Origin: Pseudomonadota bacterium
GTDB lineage: Bacteria; Pseudomonadota; Gammaproteobacteria; Steroidobacterales; Steroidobacteraceae
Reading direction: 5' to 3'
DNA length: 64,000 nucleotides
Assembly (NCBI GenBank): GCA_021851405.1
Contig: JAJZDW010000012.1
Location: 1 to 64,000 of the forward strand
Every line of letters starts with the position of its first letter. The first letter of the stretch is position 1. This document shows positions 5,459 through 16,127 of this stretch, piece after piece. The position numbers and the translations under genes were made by a program. The notes beneath the pieces are model-generated. The model was not told the DNA's origin. It did no database searches and saw only the letters and a list, made by a program, of their open reading frames with translations.

Positions 5459-6973
5459 ATGTCGGCCTCCCCCTACGAACAGCTCGAAGAGGAATTCAAG
5501 CGGCTGCACGCGCTGCGCGGCGCGCTGTCGCTGCTGCGCTGGGACGCCGCGGTGATGATGCCGCGCGGCAGCGCGGACGTGCGCGGCGAGCAGCTCGCCG
5601 CGCTCGAGACCGAGCATCACGCGCTGCTCACCGCCCCGCGCATCAGCCGGCTGCTCGATCGGGCGCAGGCCAATACCCAGGGGCTCGAGGACTGGCAGGT
5701 CGCCAACCTGCGCGAGATGCGCCGCGAGCGCGATCACGCCATTGCCACCCCCGTGTCGCTGATCTCGCGCCTCACCAAGGCCGTCTCGCGGGCGGAAGTC
5801 TGCTGGCAGGACGCCCGCGCGAAAGGGCGGTTCGACCTGTTCGCCCCGCACCTGGAGGAAGTCGTGCACCTGGTGCGCGACAAGGCCGCGCTGCTCGGCC
5901 AGGCGCTGAACCTCGCCCCCTATGACGCGCTGGTCGATGAGTTCAGCCCCGGCATCACGACCGCAGACATCGACGCGATGTTCAAGGCGCTCTCGCGCCG
6001 CCTGCCGGCGCTGATCCGCGAGGTGATCGGCGCTCAGGAGAGCCGCCCGCCGCGCCCCATCGAGGGCCGCTTCCCGCACGCTAAGCAGCGTGCCCTCATC
6101 ATCGAGGTGATGAAACAGATCGGCTTCTCCTTCGATCGCGGTCGCCTCGATGAGAGCGAGCATCCGTTCACCGAGGGGGTGCCGGGCGACATCCGCGTCA
6201 CCACGCGCCTGGACGTCGCCGACCCTTTCACCGGACTGCTCGGCGCGATGCACGAGACCGGGCACGCCATGTACGACCTCGGACTGCCCCAGGACTGGCG
6301 CGACCAGCCGGTCGGCCGTGACCGCGGCATGGCGCTCGAGGAGAGTCAGTCGCTGCTGATGGAAATGATCGTCTGCCGCAGCCGCCCGTTCGTGCGGTAC
6401 GTGCAGCCGCTCATCGCCAAGCACTTCGGTCTCGGCGGTGCGGAGTGGGAAGTCGAGAACGTGTATGCACACCTGACTCGCGTGCGCCGCGGACTGATCC
6501 GCGTCGATGCCGATGAGCTGACGTATCCTCTGCACGTGCTGCTGCGCTACGAACTGGAGAAGCAGCTGCTCTCGGGCGAACTCGCGGTGCGCGATCTGCC
6601 CGAGGCGTGGAACGAGGGGATGCAGCAGCGCCTGGGGATCCGGCCGGGCAACGACACCGAAGGGTGTCTGCAGGATGTGCACTGGGCGGTCGGCTCGTTC
6701 GGGTATTTCCCCTCGTATGCCCTCGGCGCCATGATCGCCGCGCAGTTGTACGAGAGCCTGCGCAACGACGTGCCGACGCTCGATGAGCAGCTCTCCCGCG
6801 GAGAGTTCGGCGGACTGTTCGAGTGGCTGGGCACCCACGTGTACGGGCTCGGCGCGAAGGTGCCGGTGCAGGATCTGCTGCGCGGGGCCACCCGCAAACC
6901 GCTCTCGGCGGCTGCCTACATCCGCTATGCGGAGGGGAAGTACCTGGCGGCGGCCGCGAGCGAGGCGGCATAG
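5459..6973 (+). CDS. M32 family metallocarboxypeptidase (Taq type)
   Basis: A cytoplasmic zinc carboxypeptidase that trims C-terminal residues from peptides. It has 504 residues, the usual size. The zinc site HETGH is at 265-269, followed by the glycine-rich YDLGLP turn. The second signature normally reads HES(Q/G); here it is EESQ at 294-297. By spacing (26 residues from His269), Glu295 is the third zinc ligand and is retained, while the preceding His is replaced by Glu294. The ATG at 5459 is preferred to one 36 bases upstream because the homologous-looking sequence begins there. The next gene, ttcA, starts on the very next base, so they are likely cotranscribed. Confidence 0.9.
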   Translation: MSASPYEQLEEEFKRLHALRGALSLLRWDAAVMMPRGSADVRGEQLAALETEHHALLTAPRISRLLDRAQANTQGLEDWQVANLREMRRERDHAIATPVSLISRLTKAVSRAEVCWQDARAKGRFDLFAPHLEEVVHLVRDKAALLGQALNLAPYDALVDEFSPGITTADIDAMFKALSRRLPALIREVIGAQESRPPRPIEGRFPHAKQRALIIEVMKQIGFSFDRGRLDESEHPFTEGVPGDIRVTTRLDVADPFTGLLGAMHETGHAMYDLGLPQDWRDQPVGRDRGMALEESQSLLMEMIVCRSRPFVRYVQPLIAKHFGLGGAEWEVENVYAHLTRVRRGLIRVDADELTYPLHVLLRYELEKQLLSGELAVRDLPEAWNEGMQQRLGIRPGNDTEGCLQDVHWAVGSFGYFPSYALGAMIAAQLYESLRNDVPTLDEQLSRGEFGGLFEWLGTHVYGLGAKVPVQDLLRGATRKPLSAAAYIRYAEGKYLAAAASEAA

Positions 6974-7846: not shown

Positions 7847-9283
7847 ATGGATGCCGCACTCGCCCCGCCGCTCGCCAACGCCTACTGGGTCTATCCCGGG
7901 CTGCTGCTCGCCGGGGAGCATCCGCTCGCCCAGGGCGCGCAGGCGGCGCGCGAGCGGCTGGCGCGCCTGCGCGATGCGGGGATCCGCGCCATCGTCGATC
8001 TGACCGCGCCGGAGGAGATCGACGCGTACGACGATGCGCTGCCGCTGGCAGTGGAGTATCACAGGAAGCCGATTCCCGACCACGGCGTGCCGGCGCGACG
8101 CGAACACATGGACGAGATCCTCGAGTGTCTGCACGAGTCGCTCGAGGCCGGCAGGCCCTGTTACGTGCACTGCCGGGCGGGAATCGGCCGCAGCGCCACG
8201 GTGATCGGCTGTCTGCTCATCGAGCGCGGCCTCACCGGCGAGCAGGCGCTGGCAGAACTTCAGCGGCTCTGGGAGCAGTCGGCGCGTTCGGCGGACTGGC
8301 CGCGCATCCCGGAGACCCAGGCGCAGCGCGAATACGTGCGCACCTGGCAGGCGCGCCCCATGCCCCGACGCGAGGCCGCGGCGCGAGCGGACGATCCGCT
8401 GTTCGATGCCGCGGCCCTCGCGGCCGCCCGTGCATTGCGCGAGCGTTTCCTCGGGGCGCTGATGGGGCTCGCCGTCGGCGATGCGGTCGGCGCGGCCACG
8501 CAGTACCGCCGGCCCGGCACCTTCACACCCGTGGCCGACATGCTCGGCGGCGGGCCGTTTGCGCTGCCGCGCGGCGCCTGGAGCGACGATACCGCGATGG
8601 CGCTGTGCCTGGCGCAGAGCCTGCTCGAGTGCGAGGGGTTCGACCCGGCCGACCAAGTCGAGCGCTATCGGCGCTGGCAGCGTGACGGACACCTCTCGGC
8701 GACGGGCCAGTGCCTGGGCATCACCGCGAGCACCGCGCACGCGTTGGCGGTGGCCGGGTGGCGCCACCAGCCGTTCTCCGGTTCGCATGATCCGGCTCAG
8801 CTCGATCCGGAGCCGCTCTCGCGGGTCGTCGCGCCCGTGCTGTTCGCGTTCGCGATGCCGGCGGAGGCCGAGCGGCTGGCCCGCGAATCGGCCCGCACCA
8901 CCTGCCAGGCCAACACGGTGCTGAGCGCGTGTGCGGATCTCGCCCGCGCGCTGCTCGCGGCTCTGCACGGTGAGCCGAAGGCCCGGATCCTCGCCGAGCA
9001 GCGGCCGGCCCCGGCCGGCAGCGCCGGCAAGGGCGTCACGCGGGCACTCGCCGGGGCGTTCGAAGCGTTTGCCGCGACCGGCAACTTCCGCGCCGCGGTG
9101 CTGCATGCGGCCAACCTCGGCGGCGACTCGGACGTCACCGCGGCCGTGTGCGGTCAGCTCGCCGGTGCATTCTACGGCGCCAGTGCCATCCCCGCGCCCT
9201 GGCGCGAGGCGCTGCTGCGCGCCTCGCTGATCGAGGCCTTCGCCGATCGTTTCCTCGCGCACGCGCTGGTGCACATGGGCTGA
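7847..9283 (+). CDS. dual-specificity phosphatase fused to ADP-ribosylglycohydrolase
   Basis: One 478-residue protein with two catalytic modules. Residues 1 to about 165 are a Cys-based phosphatase with the P-loop HCRAGIGRS (Cys109, Arg115) and a likely general-acid loop near DHGVP. From about 200 to the end is an ADP-ribosylglycohydrolase (DraG/ARH) fold: GLAVGDAVGAATQYRRPG, the metal-binding WSDDTAMAL (about 245-253) and the C-terminal metal motif GGDSDVTAA (Asp427, Asp429, Thr431). The first module would dephosphorylate protein or nucleotide substrates; the second would cleave ADP-ribose from proteins or small molecules. It is encoded between ttcA and the peptidase/ATP-grasp cluster, 70 bases before the latter. 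The biological substrate is unknown. Confidence 0.82.
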   Translation: MDAALAPPLANAYWVYPGLLLAGEHPLAQGAQAARERLARLRDAGIRAIVDLTAPEEIDAYDDALPLAVEYHRKPIPDHGVPARREHMDEILECLHESLEAGRPCYVHCRAGIGRSATVIGCLLIERGLTGEQALAELQRLWEQSARSADWPRIPETQAQREYVRTWQARPMPRREAAARADDPLFDAAALAAARALRERFLGALMGLAVGDAVGAATQYRRPGTFTPVADMLGGGPFALPRGAWSDDTAMALCLAQSLLECEGFDPADQVERYRRWQRDGHLSATGQCLGITASTAHALAVAGWRHQPFSGSHDPAQLDPEPLSRVVAPVLFAFAMPAEAERLARESARTTCQANTVLSACADLARALLAALHGEPKARILAEQRPAPAGSAGKGVTRALAGAFEAFAATGNFRAAVLHAANLGGDSDVTAAVCGQLAGAFYGASAIPAPWREALLRASLIEAFADRFLAHALVHMG

Positions 9284-9353
9284 AGCGGCCCGCCCGGACT
9301 GCTAAGCTCGCTGCTCCCGCATTGCACTTGCCCTCCACCGGGCGAGGTGGCCG

Positions 9354-10391
9354 ATGAGCGCACCGCCGAGCAGGCCGCGGACCGCCCCGTGGGTCCGCCT
9401 GAGCGATGAAGAGTTGCTGAAGCTGCGCTTCCGCGACCTGCACCTGAGCGTCGATCACTCGGTGATCCAGGCGCACGTGCAGCGCCTGTACGAAGAGCTC
9501 CAGGCGCGCGGACTGAAGTTCCGCCCGCACGTGTGGTTCTCCGAGGAGTGGTTCTCGCCCGACGGCGTGCCGGGCATCGCCGTCCCGTTCTACCTGGCGC
9601 ACCCGCGCCTGATGCGCCTGGAGCGCAACATCATGGGCGAGGTGGAGGGCGGCAACGCGCGCTGGTTCATGCGCATCCTGCGCCACGAGGCCGGTCATGC
9701 CATCGACAACGCATACCGACTGCGCCGGCGCAAATGCTGGCGTGAAGTGTTCGGGCCGGCCTCGCGCCGCTATCCGGATCGCTACCGGGCGCGTCCCGGG
9801 AGCCGCCGCTACGTGCATCACCTCGGCGACTGGTACGCACAGGCGCATCCCACCGAGGATTTCGCCGAGACCTTCGCGGTGTGGCTGACGCCGCGCTCGG
9901 CCTGGCGCAAGCGCTACGCCGAGTGGCCGGCGGTGCGCAAGCTGCATGTGGTCGATCAGCTGATGCAGGAAGTGCGCGAGCTGCGCGCGCCGGTGCGCAA
10001 CCGCGACCGCGTCGAGCCGATCGAATACAACACGCGCACGCTCGCGCAGCATTACCGGCGCAAGGTGGTCCGTTACGGCCAGTACCGGCGCAGCATGGTC
10101 GAGGGGATGTTGGCCTGGCTGTTCACCGAGGAGCGCCCGCGTAAGGATGCGGCGCGCGCCTGCACGGTGCTGCGCGCGCACCAGCGCGAGCTCGTCGATG
10201 CCGTCTCGCGTGAACTTGCTCTGCCGCGCTATAGTGTACGTGAGATCATGCTGATGATGATCGATCGCAGCGAGGCATTGCAATTGTACGTGCGCGGCAG
10301 CCGCCGCGACGCCGTGCATGTCTCACGCTGGCTGCTGGAGCGGCTGGCGTCGATGTATTCGCAGGGTGAAACGCCGCACATTTTTCTATGA
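9354..10391 (+). CDS. putative zinc-binding metallopeptidase
   Basis: A 345-residue soluble protein with no signal peptide. A clear zincin site HEAGH is at 111-115 (context FMRILRHEAGHAIDNAYRLRR). A second acidic signature TEDFAETFAVWL follows about 55 residues later (Glu168 or Glu172 could be the third ligand). It resembles the Pfam family of putative zinc-binding metallopeptidases whose substrate is unknown. It overlaps the following ATP-grasp gene by 4 bases (ATGA), so the two are translationally coupled and probably act on the same molecule. The basic C-terminal half (about 220-345) is unrecognised. The motif supports hydrolase activity; the pathway is inference. Confidence 0.75.
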   Translation: MSAPPSRPRTAPWVRLSDEELLKLRFRDLHLSVDHSVIQAHVQRLYEELQARGLKFRPHVWFSEEWFSPDGVPGIAVPFYLAHPRLMRLERNIMGEVEGGNARWFMRILRHEAGHAIDNAYRLRRRKCWREVFGPASRRYPDRYRARPGSRRYVHHLGDWYAQAHPTEDFAETFAVWLTPRSAWRKRYAEWPAVRKLHVVDQLMQEVRELRAPVRNRDRVEPIEYNTRTLAQHYRRKVVRYGQYRRSMVEGMLAWLFTEERPRKDAARACTVLRAHQRELVDAVSRELALPRYSVREIMLMMIDRSEALQLYVRGSRRDAVHVSRWLLERLASMYSQGETPHIFL

Positions 10392-11410
10392 AGAAACTGC
10401 GCACGCTGGTCGTGATGCACCCCAGTCTGGTGCCGCCGAAGACGCTCGCCAATCACAGCGAGAAGGAAATTGACGAGTGGCGTACCGAGTACAATGTCAC
10501 CACGACCCTGCGCCGTCGCGGTCATGACGTACGCTGCCTCGGGGTGCTCGACAGTCTGACCGAGATGCGCGTGGCGATCGCCGAGTGGAAACCGGACATC
10601 GTCTTCAATCTGCTCGAGGAATTCAACGGCATCGTCACCTACGATCAGCACGTGGTGGCGTACCTGGAGCTGCTTCGCCAGCCGTATACCGGCTGCAATC
10701 CGCGCGGGCTGCTGCTGTCGCGCGACAAGCCGCTGAGTAAGCAGTTGCTCGCCTATCACCGTATCCCCACGCCGCGCTTCGAAGTGTTCCGCCGCGGCAC
10801 GCCGGTGCGCACCGCCCGCAAGCTCACCTTTCCGCTGTTCGTGAAGTCGGCCACCGAGGATGCGTCGCTCGGAATCGCGCAGGCCTCGGTGGTCGAGGAC
10901 CTGGCGCGGCTGAAGGAGCGGGTGGAGTTCATGTACGAGCAGATCGGCTCCGATGCGCTGGTCGAGGAATACATCGAGGGGCGCGAGTTGTACGTCGGAG
11001 TGCTCGGCAACGAGCGTCTGGTCCGCCTGCCGGTGTGGGAGATGGTGTTCGGCTCGATGCCCGAGTCGCTGCCCATGATCGCCACGCGCAAGGTCAAGTG
11101 GGATCACGAGTACCGCGAGCGCTACGGCATCACCACGCACAAGGCGAGCGACCTGCCGAGCGGCGTCGAGGCGCGGCTCGACAAGCTCTCGCGGCGCATC
11201 TACCGGGTGCTCGGACTCTCCGGCTATGCGCGCATGGATTTCCGCCTCACCCGCGACGGGCGTCTGTATGCGCTCGAGGCGAACGCCAACCCGAACCTGC
11301 AGGACGGGGAGGATTTCGCCGAGTCGGCGCTCGCCGCTGGCATCAAGTACCGCGACCTGCTCGAGCGAATCATGAAGCTCGGGTTGTCTTACCGCGCGCT
11401 CTGGCGCTGA
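10388..11410 (+). CDS. ATP-grasp ligase (D-Ala-D-Ala ligase/RimK-like)
   Basis: 340 residues. The N-terminal pre-ATP-grasp domain (about 1-110) contains DIVFNLLEEFNG, the acidic segment seen in D-Ala-D-Ala ligase relatives. The ATP-grasp core contains LTFPLFVKSATEDASLGI (nucleotide-binding Lys), LVEEYIEGRELYVGVLGN and the metal-binding EANANPNL near 300. Such enzymes join a carboxylate to an amine through an acyl-phosphate. It is not a canonical Ddl: the omega-loop sequence differs and it lies away from mur genes. It is coupled by ATGA to the upstream metallopeptidase, which suggests a make-and-cut or make-and-process pair acting on a peptide-like bond. Confidence 0.8.
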   Translation: MKKLRTLVVMHPSLVPPKTLANHSEKEIDEWRTEYNVTTTLRRRGHDVRCLGVLDSLTEMRVAIAEWKPDIVFNLLEEFNGIVTYDQHVVAYLELLRQPYTGCNPRGLLLSRDKPLSKQLLAYHRIPTPRFEVFRRGTPVRTARKLTFPLFVKSATEDASLGIAQASVVEDLARLKERVEFMYEQIGSDALVEEYIEGRELYVGVLGNERLVRLPVWEMVFGSMPESLPMIATRKVKWDHEYRERYGITTHKASDLPSGVEARLDKLSRRIYRVLGLSGYARMDFRLTRDGRLYALEANANPNLQDGEDFAESALAAGIKYRDLLERIMKLGLSYRALWR

Positions 11411-11587
11411 GCGCGCCGCGCTGTCAGCACTCGGTCGCGTGCGCTGCCAACGCCGCGCATCGGAAACTCGCATCTCGAGCCGCAAAAATGAGCACAGGGT
11501 CGCGGTTTTAACCGCGGGGTTGGGTCAACTTTGGGCGCAGGCCGCCGTTGTCATCCAGAGTACGCCGCGCGGGAGGTCACACCGTCC

Positions 11588-12235
11588 ATGTCGAGCCGAA
11601 TCCAGCCGGTCGGGAATCTCACCGAGTACTTCAAGGATGCGCTGCACGGGGTGCTCGAGAACCAGCATGTGGCCCTCGAGGACCAGACCGAGCATTACGT
11701 GGTGAACTTGCTCACGCTGTTTGCCCGCTCCGAGGCGCTGTTCGAATCCACCGCTGACGGGTTGCGGCTGAAGCCGCTCGTCGTGATGCTCACCGAGGCG
11801 CTCGAGGCCCGTACCCGCGAGGAGCGCGAGCGCGGGTTGCAGCGTCTCGGGGACGTCTCGCTGTTCATCGCCGGGTTCTTCGCGCGCGGCTTTGCGCGCA
11901 AGCTGATCGACATCGATTACCACATCGCCATGGGCGGATGTGCCTACGGCACGCTGGCCCGGCGGCTGTGCGCCTCAGCGCCCCCCCAGGAGGCCGCCGC
12001 CCGCCGCGGCCGCGTTCTCGGTCAGGTGTTTGCCGAGCTCGCCGCGAAGTTTCAACCCATGGTCGATGCGCTCAATGAACTGAGCGAAGCGGGCTACACC
12101 CACACCTGCCGGGACATCCTGCGCCTGTACGAGCAGTGGCTGAAGACCGGCAGCCGGAGGAGCTACGCGCTGCTGAGGAGGCTCGGCGTCGAGCCGGCGG
12201 CGCAGCCGGGGGCAGCGCTCGGCGCGCTGCACTGA
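11588..12235 (+). CDS. unrecognised conserved-looking alpha-helical protein 1
   Basis: 215 residues (ATG at 11588; an upstream in-frame start at 11531 adds a low-quality tail). No known domain is recognised. The sequence is predicted helical, acidic at the N-terminus (NLTEYFKDALHGVLENQ), with two notable segments: LFIAGFFARGFARKLIDIDYHIAMGGCAYGTLA (about 95-127) and a C-terminal RLYEQWLKTGS stretch. No signal peptide or transmembrane helix is evident. It sits third in the peptidase/ATP-grasp cluster and is followed after 3 bases by another unknown gene, so it is probably part of the same system. Confidence 0.65.
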   Translation: MSSRIQPVGNLTEYFKDALHGVLENQHVALEDQTEHYVVNLLTLFARSEALFESTADGLRLKPLVVMLTEALEARTREERERGLQRLGDVSLFIAGFFARGFARKLIDIDYHIAMGGCAYGTLARRLCASAPPQEAAARRGRVLGQVFAELAAKFQPMVDALNELSEAGYTHTCRDILRLYEQWLKTGSRRSYALLRRLGVEPAAQPGAALGALH

Positions 12236-12238
12236 TCC

Positions 12239-12886
12239 ATGATCCTGACCCGCCTGCAGGAGCTGATCGGCGGGATCTACGATCTCGGGGTCGGCTACGA
12301 CGTATACGATTTTCTCGTCACCGACCGCTCGCGCCTGCCCGAGGCGGTGCGCGCACGCGCGAGTGCCGAAGATCTGATCGTGGCCGAAGCGGGCGACGAG
12401 ATGGCCGTGTCACTGTACCTCGATCCGGGACTGCTCGAGCGGCTCTCGTGCGCCGACCCGATGGTGCGCCTCGATGAGCACAACGTCGCGGACTGGTGGA
12501 TGGCGCTCGAGGGAGTGAGCCACTTCGTCTATCTGGCCTGGAATTGTGCCTACGACCGGCCGGTCTCGCTGCTTGAGCTCGAGATGCAGGCCGAGGTGGA
12601 CAAATATGTGGCGAGCTTCTGGTTGCTGCGCGCGCAGTGTCCGCAACATTTCCCCTCGGAGTTGCTGCGGCTGCTGTTTGCGCGCACCCGGATCGATCCG
12701 GGGCTCGCCGGGGAGCGCCAAGCGCTCTACCGCCAGGCGAGCGGGTATGCCGAGCGCTTCTGCCGGCGGCTCGAACATCTGTTGCACGGGTCGAGCGGTA
12801 CCGAGGCGGCGGTGCTCGCAGAGCTGCGCCGCTTCTACCGGTATACCCACGCACGCAAGCGCTTGCACATCGAGCGGCTGGCCTGA
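12239..12886 (+). CDS. unrecognised conserved-looking protein 2
   Basis: 215 residues, the same length as its upstream neighbour but not obviously its paralogue. It starts 3 bases after that gene's stop. Visible features: YDLGVGYDVYDFLVTDRSRL at the N-terminus, an acidic middle (MVRLDEHNVADWWMALEGVSHFVYLAWNCAYDRP), LLELEMQAEVDKYVASFWLLR, and a basic C-terminus (RYTHARKRLHIERLA). Conserved-looking Trp, His and Asp residues suggest an enzyme or binding protein, but no family is recognised. It is the last gene of the four-gene set, with 65 bases to the next gene. Confidence 0.65.
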   Translation: MILTRLQELIGGIYDLGVGYDVYDFLVTDRSRLPEAVRARASAEDLIVAEAGDEMAVSLYLDPGLLERLSCADPMVRLDEHNVADWWMALEGVSHFVYLAWNCAYDRPVSLLELEMQAEVDKYVASFWLLRAQCPQHFPSELLRLLFARTRIDPGLAGERQALYRQASGYAERFCRRLEHLLHGSSGTEAAVLAELRRFYRYTHARKRLHIERLA

Positions 12887-12951
12887 CGCGTCTCTCCGCA
12901 AGGGCCTCCTGTGCGACGAAGCGGACAGGAAAGCGCTAGTATTGCGCCACC

Positions 12952-13488
12952 ATGCCTACGGTGTCGCGACTCGGTCGACAGCTCAGTGAACTGACGAGCA
13001 TGCTCGGTCGCATCGGCGCCCGGCATGCGCTGATTGGAGGGCTCGCGCTCGCGCCGTACAGCGTGGTGCGTGCGACACAGGACGTCGACCTGCTGGTGGA
13101 TCTGGAGAACGCTGATGCGATCGAGAGGGCGCTTACCGTGCTCGGCTATCGATGCCTTCATCGCAGCGAGGAGGCGGCCAATTACGTGCGCGGCGACGAG
13201 CGTGTCGATTTTCTCTACGCCCACCGTCCGGGGGCAAAGCGATTGCTGGCCAGCGCCCGGACGCTCGTGAGCTCTCTCGGAGAACTGCGTGTCATCAGCG
13301 GCGAGGGCCTGATCGGTTTCAAGCTGCAAGCGCTCACCAACAATCCTCGGCGGACTCAGGATCTGGAGGACATCCGGGCATTGCTCCGGGCCAACCGGGA
13401 GCGGCTGGACATGGCGCAAGTGCGCGAGTACTTTCGCCTCTTCGACCGGGAGCCTCTGCTCGATGACCTCCTGCGGGAAATTGACTAG
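12952..13488 (+). CDS. nucleotidyltransferase-fold protein (AbiEii/MNT-like)
   Basis: A 178-residue protein of the minimal/AbiEii-like nucleotidyltransferase superfamily. The GG motif (LIGGLALAPYSVVRATQ) is followed by the catalytic DVDLLVD acidic pair at about 44-48, and a third acidic strand ERVDFLY near 83. The C-terminal helices contain KLQALTNNPRRTQDLEDI, typical of the DUF6036/AbiEii group. Such proteins transfer NMP to small molecules, tRNA or proteins, and some are toxins. A small open frame begins 1 base after its stop, giving a possible toxin-antitoxin-like pair, but no biochemical role can be assigned. Confidence 0.72.
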   Translation: MPTVSRLGRQLSELTSMLGRIGARHALIGGLALAPYSVVRATQDVDLLVDLENADAIERALTVLGYRCLHRSEEAANYVRGDERVDFLYAHRPGAKRLLASARTLVSSLGELRVISGEGLIGFKLQALTNNPRRTQDLEDIRALLRANRERLDMAQVREYFRLFDREPLLDDLLREID

Positions 13489-13489
13489 C

Positions 13490-13654
13490 GTGAACGACGC
13501 GCCGCTCGCCGCGGAGGGCGGTCTGGCGCTGCCGGCGGCTCGCGCAGAGGATCCGTTCCGGGCGCTCGATGAGCTGATGGCCGTCGTCGAAGCACTGTGC
13601 CCGACCTGGCCGCAGCGAGACCCGTTCGTCACCGGCGATAAAATGCGACTCTGA
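13490..13654 (+). CDS. small partner protein of the nucleotidyltransferase
   Basis: 54 residues from a GTG placed 1 base after the preceding stop; an in-frame ATG at 13463 would give 63 residues and a 26-base overlap, with GGGAG 10 bases upstream of it. The conserved-looking core is DPFRALDELMAVVEALCPTWPQR, then DPFVTGDKMRL. Its size, its tight junction with the nucleotidyltransferase gene and its lack of other features make it a candidate regulator or antitoxin-like partner. Function is unproven. Confidence 0.5.
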   Translation: MNDAPLAAEGGLALPAARAEDPFRALDELMAVVEALCPTWPQRDPFVTGDKMRL

Positions 13655-13686
13655 GGGCGATCCTTGCGCTGCCGAGTCCTTCGCCG

Positions 13687-14538
13687 ATGAATCCGATTGT
13701 CCTGCTGCGCCGGCAGTCCCCCGACTGGGCCGCGCTCTCGAGCGACTTTCGCCGCGGCCAGCCCATTGATCCGCGCCGCTACGTGCCCGATCACGCCGTG
13801 CCGGGATTTCCGCACGACGTCGCGGCACTGATCGGCGCGTGGAACGAACGCTTCGATACGGATTTCTTCACATTCCGCGCGCTGCTGGTGCGTCTCAGTG
13901 CCGCCAATCTCGCCGCGGTGGGCGAGGCCAGTCGCTACGCGTATGACCAGCTGCCCGACATCGCCGCGCTGGCGCGCACCGGGCCGTTCTATCTCTATCC
14001 GCACGATGACGATGATTTCTTTGCGCCGTACGCCGCGCAGGTGGTGCGCGCTGCGGCGCACGAGTGCGATGCGCTGGTGACGCCGCTGTTTCGCATCGGC
14101 AAGCGCTCCTGCACGTTCGTGCCGACCGGAGGCACCGCCGAACACGTGCTCGGCGAGGTGCGCGCGCAGGATTTCTGCTTCCAGACCAACAACTACGCGG
14201 TGCACAGCCGGCGCCTCACGGACCCCGAACAGATCCGCGCCGTGAAGGATCACATCGAGGCGTCCGCCTATGCCGATGCCCACGCCTTCACGCTGGCAAC
14301 GGCCCCGCAGGTGCTCAGCGCGACGGTGAAGACGCCCGCATCGGCCTCCATTCTGGCGCAGGCATTCAAGGGCCGTCTCGCGCTGCGGCGGGCATTCCAT
14401 CGGGCCATCGATGAGCTGTACGCGCTCGAGCTGCCCGAGCGTTACGCGTGGCTCGACGGTCCGTGCCGGCGCATTGCCGTGTGGCTCGAGGCAATCTACC
14501 GCGGCGCGGTGCTGGATCCTGCCGAGGACATCACGTAG
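13687..14538 (+). CDS. hypothetical protein with acidic DDDD motif (glycosyltransferase-like?)
   Basis: 283 residues, soluble, no signal peptide. The most striking element is FYLYPHDDDDFFAPY near residue 100, which resembles the metal-binding DXD region of GT-A glycosyltransferases or putative rhamnosyltransferases. It is followed by ALVTPLFRIG and later by a Trp/Arg-rich C-terminus. The domain match is not certain and the fold should be treated as unknown. Its 3' end overlaps the convergent Nudix gene by 43 bases. Confidence 0.6.
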   Translation: MNPIVLLRRQSPDWAALSSDFRRGQPIDPRRYVPDHAVPGFPHDVAALIGAWNERFDTDFFTFRALLVRLSAANLAAVGEASRYAYDQLPDIAALARTGPFYLYPHDDDDFFAPYAAQVVRAAAHECDALVTPLFRIGKRSCTFVPTGGTAEHVLGEVRAQDFCFQTNNYAVHSRRLTDPEQIRAVKDHIEASAYADAHAFTLATAPQVLSATVKTPASASILAQAFKGRLALRRAFHRAIDELYALELPERYAWLDGPCRRIAVWLEAIYRGAVLDPAEDIT

Positions 14539-15158: not shown

Positions 15159-16127
15159 GTGTCCCAATCCCGCTCCGACAGGTCCGCCGTCTACATCCAC
15201 GCCGGCTGGCGTTGCGCGAGCACCTATGTGTGGAGCCGGTTCCGGGCGCTGTCCGGCACCACCTGCTTCTACGAGCCGTTCGCCGAGCGGCTGGCGCACC
15301 TCTCGGCCAAGCGCGTGGCGCGCGACACCGCACACGGGTGGCCGTCGCGTCATCCGCCGCTGGAGCAGCCGTACCGGGATGAATATCGTCCGCTGTTGAG
15401 ACCTCTGCTGCGCGGCGTGAGGGGGTATCGCGAGTCTTTCGCGCTCGCACGCTATTTCCCGACGGACGGTGCACGCGGTGAGATCGCCTACCTCGCGCGT
15501 CTGCGCGTCCATGCCGAGCGGCGCGACTCGGTGGCGGTGTTTGGGTTCTCCCGCTCACTACAGCGGGCTGCAGCCCTGAAGACCGGGCTCGGTGGATACC
15601 ACATCGTGCTGCGGCGCAGCGCAGCGCAGCAGTGGCTCTCCTGCCGCAGCTACCGCGACGCGGCCGACGTGCCGTACTTCGAACTGTGCCACGCGGCGCT
15701 CCTGGCGCAGGCCCCGGCGGGCTCGCCGGCCGGGCGTCTCGCCGCGAGCCTCGGTCTGCCGCGCATGCCGCGCTGGCCGCGGGACGTGCGTGGCCGGCTG
15801 CGGGCACTGCACCGGACGCTCTCGCCCTGGAGCGACGAGCAGTCCTATCAGGCCTTCCTCGGAGTCTACCTGCTCGGACAGGGCGCGGCGGCGACCGCAG
15901 CCGACGTCATGATCGACGTTGAGCGCCTGGGGGCCTCGGAGCCGTATCGATTGGCGCTCAGCGCGCGGATCGGCGCCGACACCGGTCTGCCGGTGGACTT
16001 CAGTGACGCGCTCACACCCCGGCACGAGACCGCAGCGGTCGGCGTGGACTTCGCCGCTGTGGAAGCCGATATCCGCAGCCGACTCGCGCAGTTCGGCGCG
16101 GTGCTCGAGCCGGCGGCGGCGCCTTGA
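15159..16127 (+). CDS. sulfotransferase-like protein
   Basis: 322 residues from GTG at 15159. The N-terminal YIHAGWRCASTYVWSRFR resembles the 5'-phosphosulfate-binding P-loop of bacterial sulfotransferases (strand, loop, helix) with an unusual WRCAST core in place of the common KTGTT. A later VLRRSAAQQWLSCRSY fits the 3'-phosphate-binding Arg/Ser region, where the sulfate donor PAPS is held. No transmembrane helix. The call is tentative; a generic P-loop kinase-like fold is the alternative. It is a single-gene unit between the Nudix and helicase genes. Confidence 0.5.
   Translation: MSQSRSDRSAVYIHAGWRCASTYVWSRFRALSGTTCFYEPFAERLAHLSAKRVARDTAHGWPSRHPPLEQPYRDEYRPLLRPLLRGVRGYRESFALARYFPTDGARGEIAYLARLRVHAERRDSVAVFGFSRSLQRAAALKTGLGGYHIVLRRSAAQQWLSCRSYRDAADVPYFELCHAALLAQAPAGSPAGRLAASLGLPRMPRWPRDVRGRLRALHRTLSPWSDEQSYQAFLGVYLLGQGAAATAADVMIDVERLGASEPYRLALSARIGADTGLPVDFSDALTPRHETAAVGVDFAAVEADIRSRLAQFGAVLEPAAAP

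Follow-up and report, generated by a model that had tools for sequence, protein, structure and literature searches.

The HrcA operator, the controlling inverted repeat of chaperone expression (CIRCE), has the consensus TTAGCACTC-N9-GAGTGCTAA, and groESL is reported as the sole constant member of the HrcA regulon, to which hrcA-grpE-dnaKJ and rpoH belong in some species (PMC545781). An ATP-grasp protein and a peptidase are encoded in one operon in RimK-RimB and RloC-RloA, where the peptidases are described as retropepsin-like aspartic enzymes (PMC12239564). ATP-grasp genes are also tied to peptidases in graspetide-type loci of branches 7 and 8, for which no detectable precursor is reported (PMC8939145). 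The locus presented here consists of four same-strand open reading frames (ORFs), named A, B, C and D, within positions 9354–12886 of the window, the whole 64,000-nucleotide stretch of contig JAJZDW010000012.1 that was analysed, which sits in a 3.5 Mb draft genome. A is a predicted metallopeptidase, B a predicted ATP-grasp ligase, and C and D belong to families that were not recognised.

An earlier reading of this DNA made from the letters alone (the sequence-only reading) had described the four ORFs, and their sizes, the 4-bp overlap of A with B, the 177-base gap between B and C (11411–11587) and the 3-base gap between C and D were all confirmed. An alternative, longer ORF of C opens at a TTG start at 11531 in the ORF listing. 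Orthologues of A, B, C and D are present in other genomes, and all four are therefore regarded as real genes. Judged by gene order and distribution, the interval is two unrelated two-gene units that are neighbours in the window's genus, and not one system. The explanation favoured here, with a probability of about 0.6, is that A–B is a ligase–peptidase unit and that C–D is a chaperonin-linked heat-shock operon of the HrcA regulon. The comparisons drew on 60 genomes of the window's family, 370 genomes of its class and two samples of 199 and 194 genomes of its phylum, together with named loci carrying D; these, the best 80 of at least 428, overlap the family set. Genes outside the window were called with a simple script; these calls are rough and include some spurious ORFs.

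The operator and groESL neighbourhood of C–D

Alignment of the B–C gap over seven close relatives revealed a conserved block holding a short inverted repeat, and this operator is kept in 7 congeners although the rest of the gap sequence diverges. In the window the site (11424–11450) agrees with the general CIRCE consensus at 13 of 18 bases, a score equalled in the window by a single further site, at 6425. The groES gene of the same genome is preceded by an operator of the form TTAGCACTC-N9-GGCTGCTAA, and against this form the window site matches at 15 of 18 bases, the best score in the 64 kb, with the next-best site reaching 12.

A site was scored as CIRCE when at least 13 of the 18 consensus bases were present at N9 spacing within 300 bp before a gene. 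By this measure such a site precedes C in 15 of 29 loci of the family and in 40 of 80 of the named loci; among the close-tier class loci it does so in 16 of 32, and these 16 come from 11 families. Control spacings of 7, 8, 10 and 11 gave 0–2 sites per set, 40 scrambled palindromes gave means of 0.2–0.45 per set with a maximum of 2, and the threshold was reached by 0.9%, 0.0% and 0.0% of random windows of the same loci in the three sets. No such site was found before A (0/42). Agreement at 17 of 18 bases occurs in two loci (L107 and L110).

Among 42 genomes from 31 families outside the window's own, 10 genomes of 5 families have groEL or groES no more than about 1 kb from C. Adjacency was counted in the loci examined, and because some flanks end within 1.5 kb these counts are lower bounds. 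If adjacency by chance is assumed to occur at 0.5% per genome, finding it in 5 of 31 families has a binomial tail of 5e-7. Two arrangements are seen: in 8 of the 10 genomes C follows groEL on the same strand, and seven of these continue with D (G333 has no D, and in G420 the D matches come in two pieces); in the other 2, which yielded no D, C stands divergently next to groES. In an eleventh genome (G161) a GroEL gene lies about 2.4 kb upstream of C, with a kinase-like gene between them. Four of the genomes with groEL followed by C (G415, G266, G136 and G247) carry a further site with 13 or 14 matches before C, and in three of these (G415, G136 and G247) there is also a 17- or 18-match site within the groESL stretch examined. 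Taken together, CIRCE or groESL adjacency is present at 22 of 32 close-tier class loci, the other 10 having neither.

Table 1. Positions in the window of the four genes and of the operator-like site before C
Feature	Position	Strand	Description
Gene A	9354..10391	+	345 aa; gluzincin-type metallopeptidase (predicted), Peptidase_Mx kind; HEAGH 111-115, EDFAETFA 168-175
Gene B	10388..11410	+	340 aa; ATP-grasp ligase (predicted), D-Ala-D-Ala-ligase-like group; start overlaps stop of A by 4 bp
CIRCE-like (HrcA) operator	11424..11450	+	TCAGCACTC-N9-CGCTGCCAA; end 137 nt before ATG of C
Gene C	11588..12235	+	215 aa from ATG 11588; family unrecognised; variable tail, conserved C-terminal His (codon 12230-12232)
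Gene D	12239..12886	+	215 aa; family unrecognised; E91-G92-x-S94-H95 and E115-x-Q117-x-E119-x-D121-K122 invariant

Two gene pairs and their distribution

C was found in 33 of 60 family genomes, and D directly follows C in all 30 family loci examined. Likewise, C is immediately upstream of D in 77 of the 77 named loci with room upstream, among the best 80 of at least 428. Across the class sample C was found in 90 of 370 genomes, in close and distant tiers, and D in 43; in 31 of these D-bearing genomes an adjacent C shares the strand of D, in 4 C lies elsewhere, and in 8 no C was detected. In the phylum, C was found in 4 of another 194 genomes besides the window's own, in one family of another class. 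As judged from this gene order, C–D is a two-gene unit of its own, separate from A–B.

The assignments of A as an HEAGH metallopeptidase and of B as an ATP-grasp protein, both made in the sequence-only reading, were borne out by profile searches, in which A matched Peptidase_Mx at 29.5 bits (cut-off 27) and B matched Dala_Dala_lig_C at 99.2 bits (cut-off 24). A was found in 44 of 60 family genomes, and B adjoins it in all 29 other family loci examined. With a strong A defined by an E-value below 1e-50, 17 of 370 class genomes carry the gene, 14 of them outside the family and from 11 families, and 26 more show weak partial matches only. B adjoins A in 13 of the 14 loci outside the family, and in the fourteenth (L148) the contig stops inside A. 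Among 199 phylum genomes A also turned up in a single genus of another class, in four species, with B beside it in 4 of 4. The 4-bp overlap of the A stop with the B start recurs in 41 of 46 loci; at one locus (L146) the two genes are separated by 211 bp. All 19 A sequences inspected have both HExxH and ED[FW]AET, and all 18 inspected B sequences have the EANxN motif of ATP-grasp enzymes; across these B sequences the columns of the ATP-grasp core, with its lysine and acidic metal-binding motif, are also kept. Beside A–B no common third gene, transporter or precursor was seen at 13 non-family loci among ORFs of at least 60 amino acids.

A–B most likely encodes a ligase that forms amide or peptide bonds at the expense of ATP, translationally coupled to a cognate metallopeptidase of gluzincin type. 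The sequence-only reading had suggested that the ligase adds and the peptidase trims, and this idea gains support because the pairing and coupling of A with B are conserved, as are their catalytic motifs; for its reaction and substrate it stays putative. B would use ATP to activate a carboxylate for coupling to an amine or amino acid, and A would hydrolyse the product of B or an over-extended form of that product. B was rejected as a housekeeping D-Ala-D-Ala ligase (Ddl), and is not taken to be a cell-wall enzyme, because it falls far under the Ddl cut-offs, is without an NTLPGMT-type end motif and shares its genome with two further Ddl-like genes, one of which lies between or beside genes read by eye as murB and ftsQ.

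Further observations were made around A. Its C-terminal residue is Leu in 38 of 43 loci. Just upstream, at 7847–9283, lies a gene in which a dual-specificity-phosphatase-like domain is fused to an ADP-ribosylglycohydrolase domain. Of 29 other family loci, 26 have a match to this fusion next to A, and the three misses (L045, L046 and L049) are short contigs. A conserved three-gene unit of A–B with the upstream ADP-ribosylglycohydrolase was considered and rejected, as 0 of 14 loci outside the family carry it.

Several genes were noted downstream of C–D. A short protein of about 110–160 amino acids without a Pfam match (cluster c5, for example L065:4980-5372) is encoded beyond D on the opposite strand; it is present in 14 of 20 family stretches and was not found in the window's stretch. 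In three genomes of one family (L202, L205 and L208) a 112-amino-acid protein of cluster n8 is convergent with D, directly beyond groESL–C–D. In the window, D is followed at 12952–13654 by a nucleotidyltransferase-like gene (sub-threshold NTP_transf_5/AbiEii, weak PADLOC matches) and by a short ORF, read by eye, from a GTG at 13490 to 13654; the two resemble a type IV toxin–antitoxin-type pair, and they were not matched beside C–D in the family loci or stretches compared. Two more proteins, of 283 and 322 amino acids, without a Pfam or NCBIfam match are encoded at 13687–14538 and 15159–16127. A scan of 9200–13700 for a promoter consensus found none, a PADLOC search for defence genes gave no match for A–D, and plasmid searches, which covered A and D, returned no copies. 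Literature searches in open papers returned no recognised description of either C–D or A–B.

Protein features and competing explanations

Searches of the window proteins against Pfam and NCBIfam gave a sub-threshold match for C and none for D, and the same databases returned nothing for 50 C and 37 D members apart from one C member with a match of 0.0024. A PDB profile search gave four weak matches for C and none for D. Of the structure predictions proposed in the sequence-only reading, that of D was confident and helical, with a predicted local distance difference test score (pLDDT) of 90.5 and a predicted template modelling score (pTM) of 0.90, and that of C was helical and of low confidence (pLDDT 64.8). 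Foldseek found no match at E 0.001 or better for C or D in the PDB, or for D in viral models, and the predicted fold of D is possibly new within this comparison, which covered the PDB and viral models. A few weak Foldseek matches link D to zincins (SprT-like, IrrE and BepA; E 0.87–4.4). Profile comparisons found D similar neither to A nor to M48 sequences, and D as a zincin relative of either was rejected; the SprT-like family was not found in the genome. C and D as mutual homologues were likewise rejected, with hhalign probabilities of 0.5 and 0.1.

Across 37 D sequences Y14, E44, E91, G92, S94, H95, E115, Q117, E119, D121, K122, F147, Y164, A167 and K207 are invariant, and across 50 C sequences Y37, D89, L92, Y111, G116, A119, L151 and W184. 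Behind a variable tail, the last residue of C is His in 31, Gln in 7 and another residue in 4 of 42 class loci (His or Gln in 38 of 42), and in 30 family loci it is His in 23, Gln in 5 and Asn in 2. The terminal His is encoded by CAC in 24 cases and CAT in 7, all three stop codons occur after it, and His makes up 2.8% of C; selection on the C-terminal residue therefore acts, by this evidence, at the protein level.

The recurrent pairing with D, the operator and the groESL neighbours seen in some lineages suggest that C–D is an undescribed helper of protein folding under stress, and most likely an undescribed, putatively HrcA-controlled, chaperonin-linked heat-shock pair working with or beside GroESL. 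In the proposed mechanism HrcA would sit on the CIRCE-like site before C and would leave it once GroEL is occupied by unfolded protein. C and D would then be made together with GroESL, and would act as one accessory factor in chaperonin-dependent proteostasis. The C-terminal His or Gln on the flexible tail of C would contact a partner, which could be D, a client or GroEL. In D, a metal or catalytic site would be formed by the invariant Glu/His/Asp/Lys cluster. The most specific form of this mechanism, a new chaperonin accessory system in which the tail residue of C docks, D contributes its metal or catalytic site and the system joins GroESL in holding, modifying or releasing non-native clients, is offered tentatively and is in itself rather unlikely.

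Several findings weigh against the favoured explanation. The CIRCE matches are imperfect: the window site stops at 13 of 18, and a score of 13 is missed by 14 of 29 loci in the family and by 16 of 32 in the close tier. Distant relatives of C (0/14) and D genes without an adjacent C (0/12) have no CIRCE, these 12 D genes have unrelated neighbourhoods, and the groESL stretches of G425 and G201 are without a good site (best 11 and 12). The window's own groEL lies elsewhere, on contig C48, and groESL adjacency is not seen in the window's family; outside the family, 32 of 42 genomes show no groEL near C. The 80 named loci (the best 80 of at least 428) yielded no GroEL, and several flanks are too short to reveal one. 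All four C relatives of another class end in neither His nor Gln (4/4), and the Foldseek searches of C and D, also proposed in the sequence-only reading, yielded no functional lead. The presence of A is furthermore associated with that of C and D: in the family 31 genomes have both A and C, 13 A only, 2 C only and 14 neither (Fisher p 8e-5), and outside it C is present in 9 of 14 genomes with A against 79 of 353 others (p 0.001) and D in 6 of 14 against 35 of 353 (p 0.002), all statistics that ignore the relatedness of the genomes. A weak functional link between A–B and C–D may exist.

These associations also favour the view that all four genes form one modification or biosynthetic system, in which B would ligate to the C-terminus of C, A would trim it and D would be a helper. 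The compact same-strand order in the window's genus points the same way, as does the position of B directly before C, judged by distance, in 12 of 40 loci that have A or B in their flanks among the best 80 of at least 428 named loci; moreover, the C-terminal His or Gln of C is an end type on which an ATP-grasp ligase could act. A and C lie on one contig in 21 of the 31 family genomes with both, within 12 kb of each other (1.2–11.5 kb) and on the same strand in 18 of 21. Because the genes between them are unrelated (read by eye as lipoprotein, S9 peptidase, glutathione transferase or HAD hydrolase) and the shared order extends to housekeeping genes (NUDIX hydrolase, UvrD-like helicase and arginine decarboxylase, also by eye), this linkage is interpreted as conserved chromosomal order. 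Outside the family, however, no A lies within 20 kb of C or D in the 370 class genomes: of the 14 genomes with a strong A, 9 have C and 6 have D, the closest instance (G181) being about 79 kb apart, and a strong A is absent from 82 of the 90 genomes with C and from 35 of the 43 with D. The sequence-only reading had favoured a single four-gene system and had named a co-occurrence survey of the four families as the test that could refute it; in that survey C–D and A–B mostly occur apart, which is the refuting outcome it had set. C–D also has its own operator in the B–C gap, with none before A. A four-gene system was rejected on these grounds and is considered improbable, and the accompanying caution, that C–D was tied to A–B by neighbourhood only, was well placed; linkage was seen in the family alone.

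For C–D on its own, the CIRCE-like matches could be a chance or compositional artefact and the pair a plain, uncharacterised constitutive one, as the modest 13 of 18 in the window and the equal score at 6425 might indicate. Such an origin is very improbable: in each of three sets the sites are enriched at N9 when compared with other spacings, scrambled palindromes, A promoters and random windows, 17 of 18 bases match at two loci, and the site is retained in 7 congeners despite a diverging gap. The pair could instead be heat-shock regulated yet serve a role independent of GroESL, such as a response to envelope, metal or translation stress, with adjacency reflecting shared regulation. Most C–D loci are indeed not beside groESL, their other neighbours vary, and the distant C relatives are without CIRCE or groESL, so that the ancestral role of C may differ; yet shared regulation alone does not require that 10 genomes place C at groESL in two arrangements, and this alternative, while deserving real weight, is judged unlikely. 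As to A–B, its product could be a small metabolite, such as a dipeptide or amino-acid conjugate, instead of a modified protein. The D-Ala-D-Ala-ligase-like ATP-grasp fold predicted for B and the missing third gene, transporter or precursor beside the pair are in keeping with a metabolite, but a cognate peptidase fits reversible protein tagging too, as in RimK with RimB (PMC12239564), and the metabolite is given slightly less than an even chance.

Comparison with described systems

NTLPGMT-type sequence is the C-terminal acceptor motif of Ddl. B aligns with solved Ddl structures across the ATP-grasp core and keeps the ATP-grasp motifs, but it carries EANANPNL..ED where Ddl has NTLPGMT, and on Ddl models it scores 136.8 against a cut-off of 243 and 113.3 against 245.65 bits. 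All 27 A sequences in the family alignment match Peptidase_Mx (PF15887), although the match is restricted to the catalytic part of the profile, covering 80 of its 236 positions in the window's A. Like RimK-RimB and RloC-RloA, A–B pairs an ATP-grasp protein with a peptidase; unlike them, the peptidase is of the HExxH metallopeptidase kind and not aspartic, and B scores 18.4 bits against RimK, under the cut-off of 21. Graspetide-type loci of branches 7 and 8 resemble A–B, by description, in combining an ATP-grasp gene with a peptidase and no visible precursor; they differ in that neither a transporter nor a precursor was seen beside A–B among the ORFs called. A–B adds a ligase–peptidase pair whose substrate should be findable.

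C–D resembles the HrcA/CIRCE regulon in having an inverted repeat at N9 spacing, as does groES of this genome. HrcA regulons are small, with groESL reported as their only constant member (PMC545781), and a C–D operon would, if the favoured explanation is true, add a component to chaperonin biology, with the C-terminal His or Gln of C as a single residue open to direct test. In contrast to the established members of that regulon, C and D are not chaperones of any known family.

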